Made by a program: the position numbers and the translations under genes | Source: Coriobacteriaceae bacterium | GTDB lineage: Bacteria > Actinomycetota > Coriobacteriia > Coriobacteriales > Eggerthellaceae | Assembly (NCBI GenBank): GCA_015062685.1 | Contig: SUUE01000001.1 | Coordinates: 209,704-273,703 of the forward strand | Direction: 5' to 3' | Length of the DNA: 64,000 nt | The notes under the pieces: model-generated | What the model saw: only the letters and a program-made list of their open reading frames with translations | Database searches by the model: none | Told to the model about the DNA's origin: nothing | Shown here: positions 54,069 through 64,000 of the stretch, one piece after another | Layout of the letters: the number at the start of each line of letters is the position of its first letter | Numbering within the stretch: the first letter of the stretch is position 1

Positions 54069-54689
54069 TCACTCAACATCATTCACGTTGACGAAAAGCT
54101 GTTCAAACTCCGATTCCGTATACGTGTATACGTTCCTGAAAAGATACCCCTCGAGCTTCTTTAAGCCAAATCTATCTATCCTGGTTTTGGCAAGCTTGCT
54201 CACTTGATCTTGAATAGCATCGAAATGCCGCTCACGCTTCGGTTCATCTGAAGCTCGTTTCCCACCGCTCCACGATTCGTCATAGTTTTTATTCTTGTTG
54301 TATACAAGAACGAAATCCAACTCTTCCCTAGCAGAAGAAACATGGAAGTTGCAGAGATCGGCAAGGACTATAGTGCTGTCGTATGCCTTTTTGAGAACCC
54401 CAAACGCCTCCTTGCTACTAATGTGCCCATTCTTAAACTCTATGATTATGCCCTTGCCGGCGTTGTCTACAAATAGAGCATCTGCCGAACACGCTTCTTC
54501 GCAGCACGAAAGCGTCTCAAAATACTTCGTTTTCAACATGTCCAAATCATACACGGGTAAGTTGGACTTCGTCATGTATTCATGCTGCATCCTATTTGAA
54601 CAATGATCATCCAAAGATGTATTGCTAAGCGTGCTGATACACGCGCATAGCATCGGGCAATCAAAGCTAATAGATGCCATATTCATCAT
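54069..54689 (-). CDS. Putative PD-(D/E)XK-type nuclease partner of the upstream AAA ATPase
   Basis: ADALFVDNAGKGIIIEFKNGHIS (D-x(n)-ExK pattern); start region overlaps the 3' end of the ATPase gene. Confidence 0.6.
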   Translation of the reverse strand: MMNMASISFDCPMLCACISTLSNTSLDDHCSNRMQHEYMTKSNLPVYDLDMLKTKYFETLSCCEEACSADALFVDNAGKGIIIEFKNGHISSKEAFGVLKKAYDSTIVLADLCNFHVSSAREELDFVLVYNKNKNYDESWSGGKRASDEPKRERHFDAIQDQVSKLAKTRIDRFGLKKLEGYLFRNVYTYTESEFEQLFVNVNDVE

Positions 54690-55962
54690 CTTCTAGCTTT
54701 TGTAGCGGATACGAAAGCGTTTCATATATTACGTCGGTACTCGTTGTAACGTCTTTGACACGAACCCCATCCTCGGACTTCTGGGCAAAGTAATAGTGGC
54801 AGGCACCGGCCACTCTGTGCTTGCGTGAATAAACTTCAATTGATCGAAGGAAATACGGGCTATGCGTATTCAGCAAAATGTGCATTCCGAATTCTTTCTG
54901 CAAAAGCACAATGATTTCAGCGAACAGCAACTGCCATTCAGGATGAAGATGGATTTCTGGCTCATCGAGAATGAGCGTGCCATTTTGCTGAACCGCGCCA
55001 TTTGAGATCAGCATTTTCAAAATAGCGAACATCTTCATTCCTGCTGATATGTTTCTTATATCGACATCCTCTTCAATGCCATCGACGTGATATGAAAGCC
55101 CCCTCCGAGTAGATTGCGTTTTAATCTCACCCGGAACAGCCATCGAGAGCTTGTTGAAAACCGAATGCAGTTTCTGATTGATTATTGCCTCATCCACCGC
55201 AGTTGGCTCATCAAAAAAATCATTATTGTATATATCAGAAACAAGATGCTGCCGATGGCTTGCAAAACGCCGCTCCCCATCATCAGGAGGACCTAACAGC
55301 CTACCATCATCAACAACATAAGGATCGTCAATATAAATCGCTTCTGCCTGAAGAGACACTCCTTCTTCCTGTACATGCACTTTATTATTCGCAATTGAAA
55401 CGGTTAAATAATCGTTCTTTACCTTAAGCTTCACCAAAGCCGCATTGGAGGTACGCATATTATTAATTTGCTTATTGAACTCAGAATTGAAGATGTTGTC
55501 GAGCATGACCTCAACTACGGAATCATCAGGAGCTCGAAGGATCTGGAGTATCCTTTCGAATGAATACTCCACGATATCATCAACATTTTCTCCGTTCCTT
55601 AAATTCAAACCCTGAGCACAAGCGAGGATTTCAGCCCGAAGAGATTCATTGTCACTAACTAACGTTTCAGCATTTAAGACCATACGGTCAGCGGCAATCT
55701 TTAAGGGATCCAAACGCAGCATGCCGCCCCTGTTTCTAAAATACGCATCCTGAATCGCACGCATTATCGAATTCGCTTTACTGGCGGCTACGCGCATATT
55801 CAGCCTGCTGAAACCGTTGAAGATGCACCATAACGTTTTGCCAATTGTGCTCTTTCCGGCATCATTGGGACCCGCAATAACGGTGATTCCATCGATAACA
55901 ATATCAGCACTGCTAATCTTTCCAACATTTTCAATATGAAGGCGCATGCTACCTCCGCTCAT
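54667..55962 (-). CDS. AAA-family ATPase (AAA_15/AAA_21, OLD/RecF-like, no TOPRIM)
   Basis: Walker A GPNDAGKSTIGKTLW; TLILDEPEIHLHPEWQLLFAEIIVLLQKEF; LNTHSPYFLRSIEVY. Confidence 0.85.
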   Translation of the reverse strand: MSGGSMRLHIENVGKISSADIVIDGITVIAGPNDAGKSTIGKTLWCIFNGFSRLNMRVAASKANSIMRAIQDAYFRNRGGMLRLDPLKIAADRMVLNAETLVSDNESLRAEILACAQGLNLRNGENVDDIVEYSFERILQILRAPDDSVVEVMLDNIFNSEFNKQINNMRTSNAALVKLKVKNDYLTVSIANNKVHVQEEGVSLQAEAIYIDDPYVVDDGRLLGPPDDGERRFASHRQHLVSDIYNNDFFDEPTAVDEAIINQKLHSVFNKLSMAVPGEIKTQSTRRGLSYHVDGIEEDVDIRNISAGMKMFAILKMLISNGAVQQNGTLILDEPEIHLHPEWQLLFAEIIVLLQKEFGMHILLNTHSPYFLRSIEVYSRKHRVAGACHYYFAQKSEDGVRVKDVTTSTDVIYETLSYPLQKLEDDEYGIY

Positions 55963-56619
55963 ACACGCAATCCTTGTTTGGTTATCCTAGCATACCAACT
56001 GTGTCAGCAAGCACTTATACACTTTGCCCTAAACTCTTATTAAACTAATCCCTGTTTCAGAATATAAACGATCCGCTTCTTACTCGAGAGTTTAGAATCG
56101 TGCAGAATGAGTTGCGGCCACCACGCTTCCAAATGGTTCCATCGACGTCGCCAAACATAGATCGATCGTAATGGTCATTTGGCCCTATGTTTAGCGATAC
56201 TCCGGACCGAACGGCCGCTTGGACGAACATGAATTCGCCGTGGTCGCCATCAATCTCTATCGGAGTATGACCTCATCGCCTGACGCTAATCGACGAGTCA
56301 CGAGATGCTTACAGCCATAGCACGTCGCATTCATCCAACTGGTTTAGATGCCGGCATCACCGAACTCAACGTGTATAGAGCCCCTCGCTGTGTTCATTAT
56401 TCAACACATATTGAGTGGCTGCATCAGGCCTTGTTGGTGGTACCATCAATTTGTGAGTATTGCGGCGTTTGAGTAGCACCCGATTCGCGCTTTCCGTATC
56501 ACCCGACCAAGTGGCCTATTCGCGCAATCCGTAGCACCCGTTTCGCGGGCGCGTATCGCCGTGCAGCCTCCTTACAATCGTTACGCCATGTAACCGATCG
56601 TACGGAAGGAGCGTGCACC

Positions 56620-58191
56620 ATGGCGAGAAAGATAAGGGCGAAGCTGATAATGGAGCTTCGCGAGCAAGGGCTGTCGAGGAGGATGATAGCCAAGACGCGC
56701 CGCATGTCGATGGAGTCGGTTTGCGATGTGTTCGACATCGCGGCCGATCGCGGCATCGGCTGGGACGAGGTCAAGGACATGTCCGACGACGACGTCTACC
56801 GCCTCTTCTACCCTGACAGGCACGTCCGTGAGAGCATCTTCGAGGAGCCCGATTGGGAATACGTCCACAAGGAGATGGCCAAGGTCGGCGTAAACCTGCG
56901 GCTGCTTCACGACGAGTACAAGGAGAGGTGCCGCCGAACCGGCAAGGTGGCCATGGGCTACACCAAGTTCTGCGGCGACTACGGCGACTGGGCGGTCGCC
57001 AACAACCTCACGAAGCGCATCGAGCACAAGGCCGGGCAGGCCTGCGAGGTGGACTGGTCGGGGCCGACGCTCGGCAAGGGACTCGTCGACCCGACGACCG
57101 GCGAGGTCTCCAAGGTATACCTGTTCGTCGGCGTGCTGCCGTTCAGCCAGAACGCCTACTTCGAGCCGACGCTGGACATGAAGGAGCGAACCTGGCTCCG
57201 CTGCCATGTCCACATGTACGAGTTTTGGGGCGGCGTCCCCGACAGGACCGTTTGCGACAACCTCAAGGCCGGCGTGATCAAGCACCCGCGCGAGGGCGAG
57301 ATAGTGCTCAACGACGCCTACGAGGCTCTCGGCGAGCACTACATGACCGCCATCATGCCCGCCCAGGTCGGGAAGCCGAAGCAGAAGCCGTCTGCGGAAG
57401 GGACCGTCCGGGATGCGGCGACGTGGGTCATCGCCCAGCTGCGCAACCGCACGTTCACCAGCTTCGACGAGGTGGTGCTCGCCGTGCGCGAATGCAACGC
57501 TGCCTACAACGCCCATCCCTTCCAGAAGAGGGAGGGCAGCCGCGACTCGGTCTTCGCCGAGGCGGAGGCAGCGGAGCTCAAGCCGCTGCCCGACGTCCGC
57601 TACGACGTCGCCGAATGGGTCTACAACCGCTCGGTCAACCTCGACTTCCACGTCGTGTACGCCAAGAACCGCTATTCCGTGCCCCACCGCTACGTCGGGC
57701 GCAAGGTCGATCTGCGGGTCGGCGAGTCCACGCTGTCAATCTACCACGCCGGCGACCGCATCGCCACCCACCGGCTGCTGCCCGCGTACGTCAGGAACGG
57801 CTACTCCACCGACGAGTCGCACATGCCCGAGGCCTTTCTCAAGCCCGAGTGGGACGACGTGCGCATAAAGGGCTGGGCGAAGCGGGTCGGCCCGAACTGC
57901 GCGGCCGTCGTCGAGCGCATCTTCGACCGCGCCAAGGTCAAGGAGCAGGCGTACAACCCGTCGCTTTCCGTGCTCAACCTCTCTAAGAAGTACGGCGAAC
58001 AGCGTCTGGAGGCCGCATGCGCCCACGCCCTCCCGAAGCTGAACTCGCCGCGCTACAAGCATCTGAAGGCGATTCTCGATTCCGGGCTCGACGACCCGAC
58101 GGCACAGGTGCCGGCGCGGAGGAGGCCGGACGGCGGGCCGGGATCGGGCCCCAAGGGCCATGTGCGCGGTGCCGACTACTACAGGGAATAG
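56620..58191 (+). CDS. istA: IS21 family transposase IstA
   Basis: DDE residues in VDWSGPT, CDNLKAGVIKHP, KQKPSAEGTVRDA; followed by istB. Confidence 0.95.
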   Translation: MARKIRAKLIMELREQGLSRRMIAKTRRMSMESVCDVFDIAADRGIGWDEVKDMSDDDVYRLFYPDRHVRESIFEEPDWEYVHKEMAKVGVNLRLLHDEYKERCRRTGKVAMGYTKFCGDYGDWAVANNLTKRIEHKAGQACEVDWSGPTLGKGLVDPTTGEVSKVYLFVGVLPFSQNAYFEPTLDMKERTWLRCHVHMYEFWGGVPDRTVCDNLKAGVIKHPREGEIVLNDAYEALGEHYMTAIMPAQVGKPKQKPSAEGTVRDAATWVIAQLRNRTFTSFDEVVLAVRECNAAYNAHPFQKREGSRDSVFAEAEAAELKPLPDVRYDVAEWVYNRSVNLDFHVVYAKNRYSVPHRYVGRKVDLRVGESTLSIYHAGDRIATHRLLPAYVRNGYSTDESHMPEAFLKPEWDDVRIKGWAKRVGPNCAAVVERIFDRAKVKEQAYNPSLSVLNLSKKYGEQRLEAACAHALPKLNSPRYKHLKAILDSGLDDPTAQVPARRRPDGGPGSGPKGHVRGADYYRE

Positions 58192-58201
58192 GGGGCTTGC
58201 G

Positions 58202-58942
58202 ATGATAGACGAGGAAACCAGGAGGAAGCTGCGCGAGTTGAACATGGGCGAGATGGTCGAGGCGCTCGACCTGCAGGATTCCGACAGGACGACGATGGCG
58301 GTGCCGTTCGACGAGCGGGTGCGCATGATGGTCGATTACGCCTACGAGGCCAAGTACGCCTCGAGCGTGAAGCGGCTGGTGCAGCGTGCCAAGCTGCGCT
58401 TCCCGGATGCGGAGATTGGCGAGATGATATACGACGGGCGCGGCATCGACGGCGTCCTCATCCGCGAAGCGGGCACCTGCCAGTTCATGGAATCGGCGTC
58501 CAACGTGGTGATAGAGGGATGTACCGGGACCGGCAAAAGCTACCTTGCTTGCTGCCTGGCCAAACAGGCCTGCAGGAAGCGCCGGAGCGCCCGGTATGTG
58601 AGACTTCCCGACCTGCTGATGGAGCGCGACGAGCTCGCCGCCACCGAGCGGTCGAACGCCAAGATCCTGAAGAAGTACGCACGCTACGAAATCCTGATCT
58701 TGGACGAATGGCTCACCGAGGACGTGAACGACGTCGACATCTCCTTCCTGTTCGAGCTGATCGAGCGGCGCTATGCGACGAAATCGACCGTGCTCTGCAC
58801 TCAGTACACGCCGGCAGAGTGGCACGGCCGCCTCGGGGGCGGCGTGCAAGCCGACGCCATGGTCGATCGCCTGGTTCACGGCTCCGTAAGAATCGACTTG
58901 GGCGACGTCAACGTGCGCAAGCTGCTCGCCGGCAGGAAGTAG
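58202..58942 (+). CDS. istB: IS21 helper ATPase IstB
   Basis: ASNVVIEGCTGTGKSYLACCLAKQACRKRRSARYVRLPDLLMER; ILILDEWL. Confidence 0.95.
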   Translation: MIDEETRRKLRELNMGEMVEALDLQDSDRTTMAVPFDERVRMMVDYAYEAKYASSVKRLVQRAKLRFPDAEIGEMIYDGRGIDGVLIREAGTCQFMESASNVVIEGCTGTGKSYLACCLAKQACRKRRSARYVRLPDLLMERDELAATERSNAKILKKYARYEILILDEWLTEDVNDVDISFLFELIERRYATKSTVLCTQYTPAEWHGRLGGGVQADAMVDRLVHGSVRIDLGDVNVRKLLAGRK

Positions 58943-59280
58943 CGATACGCTTCTGCGAAACGGGCGATGCCCAAACGGCGTGAGCGCCGATACGCAAACC
59001 GCGAAAAGAGCGGTGCTCACGCCGCGTAATAATCACTCCCATCACCGTTGCCCATCTGACTTGATGACCTATCAAAAAACAAGGCTGAATCGCGCATAAA
59101 GCGACAATACAAAAAAGATGCAAGTCTATTGAATTGAGCCAGCTATTCTTAAAACATGTGAGTAAACCATCATCGACTTCAGCATGAAATGTAACGATGC
59201 TGAATTCATTCTCTCAAGCCACTCAATCGTCGTCTCGACATTTTCTTTATCTCCATCGACAGGCCTAATGTCCCTGCAAC

Positions 59281-62211
59281 TTAGCGTAGCCTGAATAGTG
59301 ATTCCACTTCTTCCTTAACTCGTTTGATTACAGTCTTCCTAATGTATGTGCAATCTCTAAGTACATCGGCGCTTCCAATTTGCCACTCATGGTAATTAGT
59401 GCCAGGTCTTCCAAGCATCCTTGCAACCTTTGTGTATTCGTTTGCGCGTTCTGCAAACCCTCCACCAGGAAACGCCTCGGGGAAAAAGCCTGTTACGAAC
59501 TCGACCTTTGTATCCTCGTCCTTATCAGTTGGAAACTGCGAGATGCGAATATGCCAATCGGAACCGTAATCGTCACCATCGCCCTTTCTTAACGCAACCC
59601 GTAGCGATAAAGGACCTTCAACGTACGAGGGCAAGTAAGGGCATAATCCGCCCATGAAAGTTTCAACGTATTCTCTGTATGATCGTTCGCATTCCAGAAG
59701 CGCTATCGCGCATCGCTTCTTTACGGTCTCTTCTTTGTACATATCCCAAACCCACCTGCTAGCGCAATCGACATTGTCGGGCTCTGGTGGTAGGAAGCGG
59801 AGATATTCCTCTCCGCTCATTTCGAGAAGCTTTATCAAGCAATATAGAACGCTATTTGGAATCGTAACGCCATCGATATTGATGAGATAATCGGGCTTTC
59901 CGTTGATAATAGCGCCGAATTCGTCAGCATTGCAGTTTCGAAGGGTGAGAATCTCTCTTTTCCCCGTATCGCTCCAACGACTGAGGCTTCTATTCCTCAG
60001 TGCGCCTTCAATCAGCCCGACACGCATGCCGAGCGGTTCCGTAAGAATTGTCGTAGACGACTTGAAGAAACTCTCGATATCATCGGATACCATCGAAATG
60101 GCTATTTCCCGCGCACAGTCGATGCCTCCATAGATGTTTTTGACACGATACACGTGAACTTCTGGCCTATCGGACGCTCTGAGGCTTAATATGGGCATGA
60201 CAATTCCATCAGCCGTTGTCATCGTTGGTCCTTGAGCATCATCGGACAATTCCACGGATATAGCGTCATCACCATCGTTGCGTTTCTCAAGAAGCTCGAT
60301 ATGCATAACGGTCGTATATGGGCTATACGACACGTTTGCACGAATTGGCGTATCGAGCGCCGACAGGGACCTCCAGAACGGTATATGGGGCTTCATGGCC
60401 TCAAGGTAGATGGCCGAGATGTTGATGTAGCTTTTCAGGGCTTGCCTCGCAATCGCTTCGATTTCTTCTTTGCTCGGAGCATCCTGCACCTGCTCAGAAA
60501 GGTTCTGGCGGCCCCGAAGGCAGTCCATATAAAGAGCCAGATTGTTGCACTCTAGGTAATCGAAAACAACTGCTTGCTTATCGCCGCTCTTTATACATCC
60601 GCATAACAATTGGAAGAGATTCGCGAGGAGCTTTTCGTGCCCATGCTTCTCGCAGAAAGACTTTATGTAGGACTTGCTTTGATGTGCGAGATAATCTGCA
60701 GCCAAGTATTCCTGCAATACACAATGAGAAAAGTCAGTGCCATCATGGGTTTTCACGAGCAGCCCGCTCCTTTTCCCATGTGCTTCGATTTGATTTGCCT
60801 CTTCAGCCGTCATGGCTGAGATGAGGAAGGATCTTAATGGAAGCGTTTCTGGGTCGAGGAGTTTCTTTAAAGCGTAGGATCCAAGCTGACGCCTAACATA
60901 GGATGAATCCATTTCTGCATCTGGCTCTATCTTAAAATCAAGCATGCTGGTAATACATTCGTCGTATACGGCAGATAAATTCCTTGGAACTGCGTTATCG
61001 CCTTGAACGTAAAGGAATCTCACGAGACAAGAAAGATGTAACGGGTTTTGCATCAGTTTGCGACCAGCATCGCTGAATCGACTCATCACGCTATGCGCAT
61101 GATATATGCCGTTGGCCTTCAGAAAACCGATGACTTGTTCGTTGCTTAAGCTATCGAGCCGCACACAGTCAATGCCAATAATCGAGCAGTCGCTTTCGAC
61201 ACGTGACGAGCAGATTATTTGCGATCTTTCGCGTCGAGCGTACAAGGCTAATTCGTTTAAAAGAAGATCACGATCTTTTCTCGCCTCATCAAGCCCATCA
61301 ACCATCAAACAGAACAAATCCGGGTTTGCCGCAACAAATTCCCCGCTTATCTCAGGTGTTGTTTTTGCGATTGCGCATGCTGCTCCATCTTCTAGTGAGC
61401 TGTATTGACGTGACCAGCCGCGCGCTTCAAGAATAACGGGAATTCGAGTGCTTTCGCCATCGAGATAATACCGTGCAAGCTCAGAGGCCAGGCTAGCGAT
61501 AAGCTCGCTTTTTCCTATACCAGGCTCGCCTGATATGAGCATAGAAGAGTTCGCCTTTGCAAGATCAGCAGAAGTGACGCTCTCCTTCGTGCGCCCCCTG
61601 TGAACAGTTCTCTCGATTGAGTCCGATTTGGTCATCTGGATAACCTGTTCGCAGTATCTCGCCAGAATGGGACGAACACGATCTCGCTCGGAAATGGCTT
61701 CGGTTTTAATTGCCTTTGCCCTTTCAAATGAGAACTCTGTATAGATTCTTGGCCAAGTCTTCGCAAGCTCCGATGGCGTTTCTGCTGAAAACTGCTTATC
61801 TGCCGCGTTTAGAACGCTCACGAAAAAACGAAACGACGTACCGTTCGTGATGCAATAAAGCGGTGCGCGCGTCCAGTGAGTATAGAACTCCGCCTGCGTC
61901 CTAGCGTCGTCGAGTTCCTCATCAGGACCCTTCACTTCCACTGCAAGAAGAGTGGTATCTCGATACTCATCGCTCAATGCCGTTTCGCGATCAGGCTTAG
62001 CAGTTTTTTTCGTGTAGCACATCGCATCGGCTTTTTTAGGTGAGGGCTTCGACCGTCCTTCGTTGTAGTAAACGGGAACCTCGGTTGAGATGAACTCCGA
62101 TGGATATCCGAGTATTGCGAGAAGCTTCATAACAACTTTTGCGCGCACGTCTTCTTCGCTGTTGAGCTGCTCCATCTCTATTGCTCTTACAAGTTCATCG
62201 CATCCCGACAT
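59281..62211 (-). CDS. STAND/NACHT NTPase with N-terminal HSDR_N-like PD-(D/E)XK nuclease domain (bacterial NLR-like, candidate antiphage protein)
   Basis: N-term KADAMCYTKK...LLAVEVKGPDEELDDARTQAEFYTHWTRAPLYCITNGTSFRFF; NACHT Walker A MLISGEPGIGKSELIASLA, Walker B LFCLMVDGLDEA; long C-terminal sensor-like region. Confidence 0.82.
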   Translation of the reverse strand: MSGCDELVRAIEMEQLNSEEDVRAKVVMKLLAILGYPSEFISTEVPVYYNEGRSKPSPKKADAMCYTKKTAKPDRETALSDEYRDTTLLAVEVKGPDEELDDARTQAEFYTHWTRAPLYCITNGTSFRFFVSVLNAADKQFSAETPSELAKTWPRIYTEFSFERAKAIKTEAISERDRVRPILARYCEQVIQMTKSDSIERTVHRGRTKESVTSADLAKANSSMLISGEPGIGKSELIASLASELARYYLDGESTRIPVILEARGWSRQYSSLEDGAACAIAKTTPEISGEFVAANPDLFCLMVDGLDEARKDRDLLLNELALYARRERSQIICSSRVESDCSIIGIDCVRLDSLSNEQVIGFLKANGIYHAHSVMSRFSDAGRKLMQNPLHLSCLVRFLYVQGDNAVPRNLSAVYDECITSMLDFKIEPDAEMDSSYVRRQLGSYALKKLLDPETLPLRSFLISAMTAEEANQIEAHGKRSGLLVKTHDGTDFSHCVLQEYLAADYLAHQSKSYIKSFCEKHGHEKLLANLFQLLCGCIKSGDKQAVVFDYLECNNLALYMDCLRGRQNLSEQVQDAPSKEEIEAIARQALKSYINISAIYLEAMKPHIPFWRSLSALDTPIRANVSYSPYTTVMHIELLEKRNDGDDAISVELSDDAQGPTMTTADGIVMPILSLRASDRPEVHVYRVKNIYGGIDCAREIAISMVSDDIESFFKSSTTILTEPLGMRVGLIEGALRNRSLSRWSDTGKREILTLRNCNADEFGAIINGKPDYLINIDGVTIPNSVLYCLIKLLEMSGEEYLRFLPPEPDNVDCASRWVWDMYKEETVKKRCAIALLECERSYREYVETFMGGLCPYLPSYVEGPLSLRVALRKGDGDDYGSDWHIRISQFPTDKDEDTKVEFVTGFFPEAFPGGGFAERANEYTKVARMLGRPGTNYHEWQIGSADVLRDCTYIRKTVIKRVKEEVESLFRLR

Positions 62212-62227
62212 GTCGTCGCTCCTTCTT

Positions 62228-63439
62228 CTACACCGCCCATACGGGCACAGCCTGCACGTTATCGCTCACGAAATATGGGGCCTCCGCCTGGCAGAGCACA
62301 TGGCCGAACCCCACCTCGTAATCAGGCATGCCCTCGAGGCAGGAGAAGCTCTTGACAGCATCTGAGCCCACGGTCGCGGCAGTTTTCACCTCTACAGGAT
62401 GCAGCGTCCTGCCGCGTTGGACGACCAGGTCGATCTCGCGCTTCTTGGCATCGCGGTAGAACCATATGTCCCGCAGGCTCGCGCCCGCGTTCATATGGCT
62501 CTTCAATACCTCACCTACGGCGAACGTCTCGAACATGTGGCCCGCCACGGCCCCCCGCTCGAGCGCGTCCGGCGTAGTCCAGCGGGCGAGATGGCACGCG
62601 AGGCCCGTGTCCGCGAAGAAGAGCTTCGGGGTCTTCGCGAGCCGCTTCTCGACGTTCGCCCAGAAAGGATGCAGCAGGTGGATGACGCCGGAGGCCTCGA
62701 GCACCGACGCCCACGACTGCACGGTCTTGTAGTCCACGCCCACCGTCCTGGCGATGTCGCTCGCGTTGAACAGCTGCCCCGTGCGCGCCGCGCAGGCGAC
62801 CATGAAGCTGTAGAACCGCGACTCGTCCTTCACGTTCACGAGATCGCGCACGTCGCGCTCGAGGTAGGCGCGCACGTAGTCGGTGTAGAAGGGGTCCCAC
62901 TCGATGCCCGGGTCCTGGAGCTCTGGCATGCTCCCCCGGTGGATGACCTCCCAGATGCTCTTGGGTGCCGGCGGCACGTCGGCCGCCTTGAGCTCTGCTG
63001 GCACGTAAGCGCGCGGTGCCGCAGCGACGCCGGTAATCTCGCGCAGGGAGAGCCCCGCCATCTGGATGATGCGGACGCGGCCGGCGAGCGACTCGCTCAC
63101 GCCTTTCATCAGGTGGTAGGTCTGCGACCCGGTGAGCACGACGGTGCCCTTCTCGTCGGATTTGTCCACGAGGAACTTCACGGTGGAGAACAGCTGCGGC
63201 GCCTTCTGCACTTCGTCGATGATGATCGGCAGCTCGTGGCTGCGGAAGAACAGCAGCGCGTCCTGGGTTGCCTGCAGGAGCGCCGAGGGGTCTTCCATGG
63301 TCACGTAGTTGTAGCGGCTCCCCAGATGGTGCCTGAGCATCGTGGTCTTGCCGACCTGCCGTGCACCCGTGACGAGCACGACCTTGCCCTGCCCGAGCAT
63401 GCGGTCGACGGTGCGTTCCACCTCGCGTTCGATATACAT
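62228..63439 (-). CDS. ATP-binding protein, AAA_14 + DUF4143
   Basis: GKVVLVTGARQVGKTTMLRHHLG; LPIIIDEVQKAPQLF; ERDVRDLVNVKDESRFYSFM; WFYRDAKKREIDLVVQRGRTLHPVEVKTA. Confidence 0.92.
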   Translation of the reverse strand: MYIEREVERTVDRMLGQGKVVLVTGARQVGKTTMLRHHLGSRYNYVTMEDPSALLQATQDALLFFRSHELPIIIDEVQKAPQLFSTVKFLVDKSDEKGTVVLTGSQTYHLMKGVSESLAGRVRIIQMAGLSLREITGVAAAPRAYVPAELKAADVPPAPKSIWEVIHRGSMPELQDPGIEWDPFYTDYVRAYLERDVRDLVNVKDESRFYSFMVACAARTGQLFNASDIARTVGVDYKTVQSWASVLEASGVIHLLHPFWANVEKRLAKTPKLFFADTGLACHLARWTTPDALERGAVAGHMFETFAVGEVLKSHMNAGASLRDIWFYRDAKKREIDLVVQRGRTLHPVEVKTAATVGSDAVKSFSCLEGMPDYEVGFGHVLCQAEAPYFVSDNVQAVPVWAV

Positions 63440-64000
63440 GAGCGCCTCCTGTCTTTCCGGAAGCATTATTGCTCAATTATCGAATGAGGTCAAATTTAGG
63501 AATAGTTATCCTAATAGTATCTATTTCGATATGGACATGAAGCGATAGCACAAACATCGATGAAGGTCCGAATTACCCTGCATGCCATCGAGCCATTTCT
63601 CAGTGCTTCGGAGCACAATGGCGCCTCCATGCGCATCGAATCCGAATACCAAAACACCAATGGCCTTAGCTTCTTGGTGTCTGCAGTTCGTCTTTGCCAC
63701 CATCCCTGGCCGCTAGCCCACACGTGCGCGGACAAGCCCGATAACGTAGCAGGCCGGACGATCACGCGTAGGGTGTGCGCCGCTGCCCGGGCGTGACGCA
63801 TGACGGACGCGCGCCCCGATAACGCTGCCATAGGCCAGATGGCGGCGTAGCGTGGGCTGAGCACGCGGCCGGAGGCAGACCGCGTCAGCGGGCTGCCGTA
63901 GGCGCGTATGCGAAGACCACGCGGAGCCGACAGCTGGCCGTGCGGGAGACTTCCTGGGCGCGCGGCCGGCATGTGGCACGAACGGGCCGAGCGCACACCC

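Follow-up and report, generated by a model that had tools for sequence, protein, structure and literature searches.

A candidate antiphage NLR of the NACHT family from a Coriobacteriaceae bacterium, with an HSDR_N-type N-terminus and a core that relatives join to other N-terminal modules

Bacterial NACHT (bNACHT) proteins of clade 14 carry a short C-terminal SNaCT domain. Closer in design to the protein described here are bNACHT25 and bNACHT32 of clade 6, single proteins with an N-terminal PD-(D/E)XK DNase, a central NACHT module, and a C-terminal sensing region. In bNACHT25, which combines PD-(D/E)XK and NACHT, DNA is degraded on infection and the active site is required; the protein ends in an NCH1 domain and acts with DnaJ (PMC12169576). 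AVAST type 1 systems also use STAND-type receptor logic and consist of an MBL nuclease (Avs1a) and a trypsin-STAND protein (Avs1b) (PMC12799240).

The window, by which we mean the whole 64,000-nucleotide stretch of DNA that was analysed, contains a complete gene (59281..62211, minus strand) in which ORF and Pfam analyses delineated an HSDR_N_2 domain, a NACHT module, and an uncharacterised C-terminal region, the presumed sensor. The 976-aa product has the layout of bNACHT25 and bNACHT32, its sensing function being presumed here. It differs from bNACHT25, to which it was compared by description only, in that the effector belongs to the HSDR_N_2 family; where bNACHT25 has NCH1, no C-terminal Pfam domain was found here, in a Pfam copy whose content of NCH1 and SNaCT is unconfirmed. 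Set beside the short C-terminal domain of clade 14, its C-terminus is about 470 aa long, likewise with no match in that copy. The MBL nuclease and trypsin-like module of AVAST type 1 are carried by Bacillota relatives of its NTPase and C-terminal core, but neither by the window protein itself. At about 790 aa, this core falls far short of the length of Avs1b (profile of 1924 positions), of which only the N-terminal ~220 residues match the relatives, and neither PADLOC nor NCBIfam contained an Avs receptor match for the window protein. The same full-length domain order and the same PD-(D/E)XK residues occur in HSDR_N-STAND proteins of Phaeobacter inhibens and Agrobacterium fabrum, although the Phaeobacter protein is only about 20% identical and both have different neighbours (SIR2-family genes nearby). 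They are annotated as "type I restriction enzyme HsdR N-terminal domain-containing protein", and we found no published function for them. Since PD-(D/E)XK effectors are already known from NACHT proteins, the gene does not represent a new kind. Its novelty, measured against the libraries searched, lies in the presumed sensor region and in the occurrence of this region together with at least four effector types; an earlier mention is possible, as many subscription papers lay outside the literature search.

The reading frame is intact and begins with ATG, and a frame of this length is very unlikely to have arisen by chance because the longest one among 200 Markov shuffles of the ORF stretch had 277 codons. 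A strong Shine-Dalgarno sequence, AAGGAG (62219-62224, minus), is located 7 nt 5' of the start codon, inside a 16-nt intergenic gap. The gene has a foreign base composition, with 48.3% GC compared to 62.4% in the window as a whole and 64.9% in its immediate upstream neighbour, which bears out its description as AT-rich in the first-pass annotation, made from the sequence alone. The three parts of the gene are even in composition (49.5, 47.6, and 48.2% GC), and because the low GC runs end to end without a break between them, the whole gene, rather than one domain, looks to have been acquired. Flank searches in the same genus for the exact ends of the AT-rich segment returned partial matches.

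The N-terminal effector region (residues 1-185; 61657..62211, minus) matches Pfam HSDR_N_2 over residues 19-131 (61819-62157, minus) with an E-value of 6.4e-9, above the curated gathering cut-off. In the alignment with the two alphaproteobacterial relatives from Phaeobacter and Agrobacterium, E19, D62, E92-x-K94, Q106, and Y110 are invariant; D62 is part of the KADAMCY motif and E92-x-K94 of LAVEVKGP. The family match, the acidic residue, the E-x-K, and the downstream Q/Y of a PD-(D/E)XK nuclease are thus all found in this region, and the HSDR_N-like, PD-(D/E)XK-patterned N-terminus that the first-pass annotation had read from these motifs holds up. The predicted fold rests on the Pfam match and the motifs: AlphaFold modelled the N-terminus poorly from an input alignment without relatives having an HSDR_N domain. 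A sequence search with the full-length protein against solved structures gave no match, and the N-terminal alignment gave none of significance, the second hit being a type I R subunit (E 0.58).

The NACHT NTPase module (residues 186-505; 60697..61656, minus) was delimited with Pfam, AlphaFold, and Foldseek. Pfam NACHT matched residues 224-316 at 9.2e-7, exceeding the curated cut-off. The module includes Walker A (GEPGIGKS, residues 228-235 with K234; 61507..61530, minus), in which P230, G231, G233, and K234 are invariant in relatives, and Walker B (LMVDGLDEA, residues 302-310 with D305; 61282..61308, minus), in which D305-E309 are invariant, and it is closed by a winged-helix motif, FSHCVLQEYLAA (residues 494-505), so that all three marks of a NACHT-clade NTPase are present. 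The AlphaFold model, built from a four-sequence alignment with a mean pLDDT of 51 overall, was usable only over most of residues 180-420 (pLDDT 60-85) and part of 500-560. A Foldseek search with the NACHT model identified vertebrate NLRC4, NOD2, and NLRP3 as nearest (E 2.6e-11 and weaker). The P-loop and Walker B named at first reading were therefore recovered by Pfam and by a moderate-confidence model that resembles vertebrate NLRs, and the structural modelling proposed with them proved usable for this module but was poor for the N- and C-termini.

Because the NACHT module reaches about residue 505, the C-terminus initially given as ~500 unrecognised residues is shorter, at about 470 aa (residues 506-976; 59284..60696, minus), and its lack of a recognisable family was confirmed. 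On their own, these 471 residues match no Pfam family above threshold; at E<=1 a sub-threshold Nif11 is the sole Pfam match, in a copy not confirmed to contain NCH1 or SNaCT, and PHROG yielded one sub-significant match. Modelled alone by AlphaFold, the region reached a pLDDT of 39. A homologous region is present in relatives from Coriobacteriales, Bacillota, Alphaproteobacteria, and Cyanobacteria, and its position and conservation point to a putative infection sensor. In the secondary structure of both AlphaFold models, predicted with low confidence, the order long helix, strands, helix is seen twice. By profile comparison and predicted secondary structure, we tentatively delimited one unit at residues 587-719 (60055..60453, minus; long helix, beta region, helix) and a second one at residues 836-976 (59284..59706, minus). 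Profiles of the two units, with boundaries that we chose ourselves and 50-60 shuffles as control, aligned over 121 columns at E 1.4e-5 when built from eight sequences; those built from twelve sequences scored 32 versus a shuffled maximum of 14.7, over 21 columns only. An internal duplication of the C-terminus is therefore possible but not established.

The gene is patchily distributed. Its C-terminal region occurs in two of the 331 genomes of the order, the window's own and one other, which we count in favour of a defence function, and in 3/398 genomes phylum-wide, the third being from a distant branch. The "phages" collection that we searched contained no match to the protein. Among genome contigs, the single-sequence query found no match, and a C-terminal alignment query found three loci. 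In Collinsella tanakaei YIT 12063, a NACHT protein (locus L013:5606-8449) is 46% identical over residues 182-975 only and keeps the frame down to the last residues; in the nuclease's place it has an unrelated, apparently helical N-terminus without a Pfam match. The same NTPase and C-terminal core, at 22-24% identity, is found on a Lysinibacillus fusiformis plasmid and on genome contigs of Sporosarcina luteola and Staphylococcus xylosus. All three proteins begin with a trypsin-like domain, that of Lysinibacillus being matched by the Avs1b N-terminus at 8e-20, and directly upstream of each is a gene for an MBL-fold protein (the two copies tested match Avs1a at 1.4e-90 and 3.3e-89). This nuclease-protease (MBL/trypsin) pair is an experimentally established antiphage effector that Hachiman, AVAST, Lamassu, and DRT have acquired on repeated occasions (PMC12799240). 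As that text nowhere contains the terms NACHT or bNACHT, the pair seems to be housed by the present core as well and would thereby gain another lineage of hosts.

In Sporosarcina (L014:928-4073), the MBL and trypsin-NACHT pair sits after genes reading as TniB- and TniQ-like. In Staphylococcus xylosus (L015:1252-8500), the gene ahead of the pair reads as glmS, the classical attachment gene of Tn7. These preceding genes suggest Tn7-like elements as carriers of the pair.

The HSDR_N-STAND proteins of Phaeobacter inhibens and Agrobacterium fabrum are plasmid-encoded. Their profile and that of the window family can be aligned across 864 columns (E 1.7e-13), so that the whole architecture is common to both, and the C-terminus alone still matches at E 4.7e-7 (score 59 versus a shuffled maximum of 22). 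The Phaeobacter gene (L005:10823-13297) is followed by SIR2-family and DUF87-domain genes, and IS481 copies flank it. A third, more distant branch can likewise be aligned to this family, across 677 columns (E 4.9e-23); the C-terminus by itself scores 95.7 versus a shuffled maximum of 21.2. Members of this branch include a protein with an N-terminal DUF4062 from a genome of Sporosarcina's phylum, a Priestia megaterium plasmid gene (L048:3179-6205) whose N-terminal alpha/beta-hydrolase (by annotation) is fused to the STAND and C-terminal core, a Nostoc plasmid gene (L047:2385-6436) that has a gene of the caspase family upstream of it, and an actinobacterial gene in which no N-terminal domain could be recognised. 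An N-terminal GKYNISIGQGQNIQIGD stretch in the Nostoc relative resembles an effector-associated adaptor domain. In one antiphage system, DUF4062 is reported by a preprint to act as a TIR-like NADase (PMC13174449). Alignments and profiles thus reveal NACHT plus C-terminus as a conserved core joined to N-terminal effectors that vary between relatives (HSDR_N_2, unrelated, trypsin-like, DUF4062, and alpha/beta-hydrolase), and that the same core stands behind other modules strengthens a tripartite reading as effector, switch, and sensor.

We consider it likely that the gene encodes a single-protein bacterial NLR of the STAND/NACHT family whose function is most probably defence against phage, by a mechanism of sensing, assembly, and cutting. 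In the uninfected cell, the NACHT NTPase would hold the protein inactive. The C-terminal ~470 aa would detect a phage product or a disturbance caused by the phage, upon which the NACHT modules would oligomerise in an ATP-dependent manner and bring the N-terminal PD-(D/E)XK domains together. These might then cut phage DNA, host DNA, or both and so bring phage production to a halt, probably at the infected cell's expense. The Pfam domains, the conserved catalytic residues, and the presence of the core behind other N-terminal modules support the bacterial NLR with which the first-pass annotation had begun. Also in favour of a defence role are the precedent of bNACHT25 and the position of this low-GC gene next to an IS21 element and not far from a type I R-M locus. 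PADLOC, to which it had looked for a system assignment, supplied none: no PADLOC or NCBIfam model assigns the protein to a known defence system, and the matches span the P-loop or HSDR_N only. As no defence library names the gene, candidate is the fitting word for its antiphage function.

Upstream, on the same strand, is a gene for a 412-aa ATPase with AAA_14 and DUF4143 domains by Pfam (62228..63466, minus), whose stop codon is 16 nt from the NLR gene. The two genes probably share one transcript, because the ribosome-binding site of the NLR gene is in the gap and a promoter-like site (63493-63465, minus) precedes the first gene, a weak signal given that 6 such sites were found where 3.4 were expected. 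This arrangement, and the match of the ATPase to PADLOC candidate PDC-S01 at 4e-106, could mean that the NLR is one half of a two-gene system in which the ATPase acts with it, for example as a regulator or a second nuclease. We regard such a partnership as unlikely: the upstream gene has the GC content of the host, and no DUF4143-like gene was seen adjoining the Collinsella, Sporosarcina, and Staphylococcus homologues (L013, L014, and L015). An obligate partner was judged unlikely for the same lack of conserved linkage. Because of the host-like GC and the absence beside homologues, it is more likely that the linkage is accidental, with the NLR gene having landed behind a resident gene whose transcript it uses. 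The C-terminus of the DUF4143 protein contains REIDLVV...HPVEVK, which reads as a PD-(D/E)XK pattern.

A restriction-like enzyme with McrBC-like logic, in which the NTPase would power the recognition and cleavage of foreign DNA directly, with no switch after sensing, is less probable still. In the R subunits of type I restriction systems the nuclease domain is HSDR_N, HsdR shares this N-terminal domain with the NLR protein, and just past the window there is a type I R-M locus. Unlike HsdR, however, the NLR gene has no SF2 helicase domain and no HsdM or HsdS partners in the same operon, its NTPase is a NACHT by Pfam, and relatives that exchange the nuclease for a trypsin-like or DUF4062 module yet keep the core fit such an enzyme poorly; for want of a helicase, we dropped this reading. 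That the gene now serves no defence function, being either a NACHT regulator or a mobile passenger in decay, would agree with its rare, patchy occurrence and the adjoining IS21 element but is highly improbable, given an intact frame with every motif kept, an alignment with Collinsella that reaches the last residues, and known effector domains of relatives that indicate conflict rather than metabolism.

The single-protein NLR, our preferred reading, adds a member from Collinsella's order to the bacterial NLR repertoire and uncovers a receptor core with a presumed sensor region undescribed in Pfam and with effectors that differ between relatives. More speculatively, and less likely than not in our view, the C-terminus may represent a new class of sensor, derived from a duplicated helix - beta - helix unit and responding to a single conserved infection cue in bacteria of at least four phyla. 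One core would then have been repeatedly refitted with a PD-(D/E)XK DNase, a protease-activated MBL nuclease, a DUF4062 NADase, and an alpha/beta-hydrolase, a natural effector-swap series on a fixed sensor. If the sensor does read the same cue in all relatives, effector exchange on one sensor becomes directly testable.

The region has the look of a mosaic of acquired conflict genes, lying between genes for polysaccharide export and the type I R-M locus. Just past the window on its right, the genes of this locus read as hsdR, hsdM, and hsdS (L019:12099-18333; contig C22 of the same genome, G000, about 274098-280332). Between the NLR gene and an ATPase pair is, as first annotated, an IS21-type element (about 56470-59021), which has several terminal repeats; istA/istB occupy 56620-58942, the terminal inverted repeats are at 56537-56559 and 58942-58964, and by eye we could make out no target-site duplication. 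The first gene of the overlapping pair (54069-55962, minus; 44% GC) encodes an AAA_15/AAA_21 ATPase, whose best PADLOC matches are HEC-02A, NsnB, and PD-T4-4_A (5e-22 to 5e-21); the second encodes a protein of 206 aa in which a D..IIIEFKN (E-x-K) pattern is seen. Of the ATPase/nuclease pair noted here at the outset, the ATPase was confirmed, and the partner has the D..E-x-K pattern but no family match; the pair resembles an ATPase of the OLD/AbiEii type accompanied by a small protein that may be a nuclease. Three combinations of an ATPase with an E-x-K pattern are found inside 10 kb. Elsewhere in the genome, a 1457-codon frame contains a second, weaker NACHT-like match (L051; G000 contig C12:136671-137123), below the Pfam cut-off.
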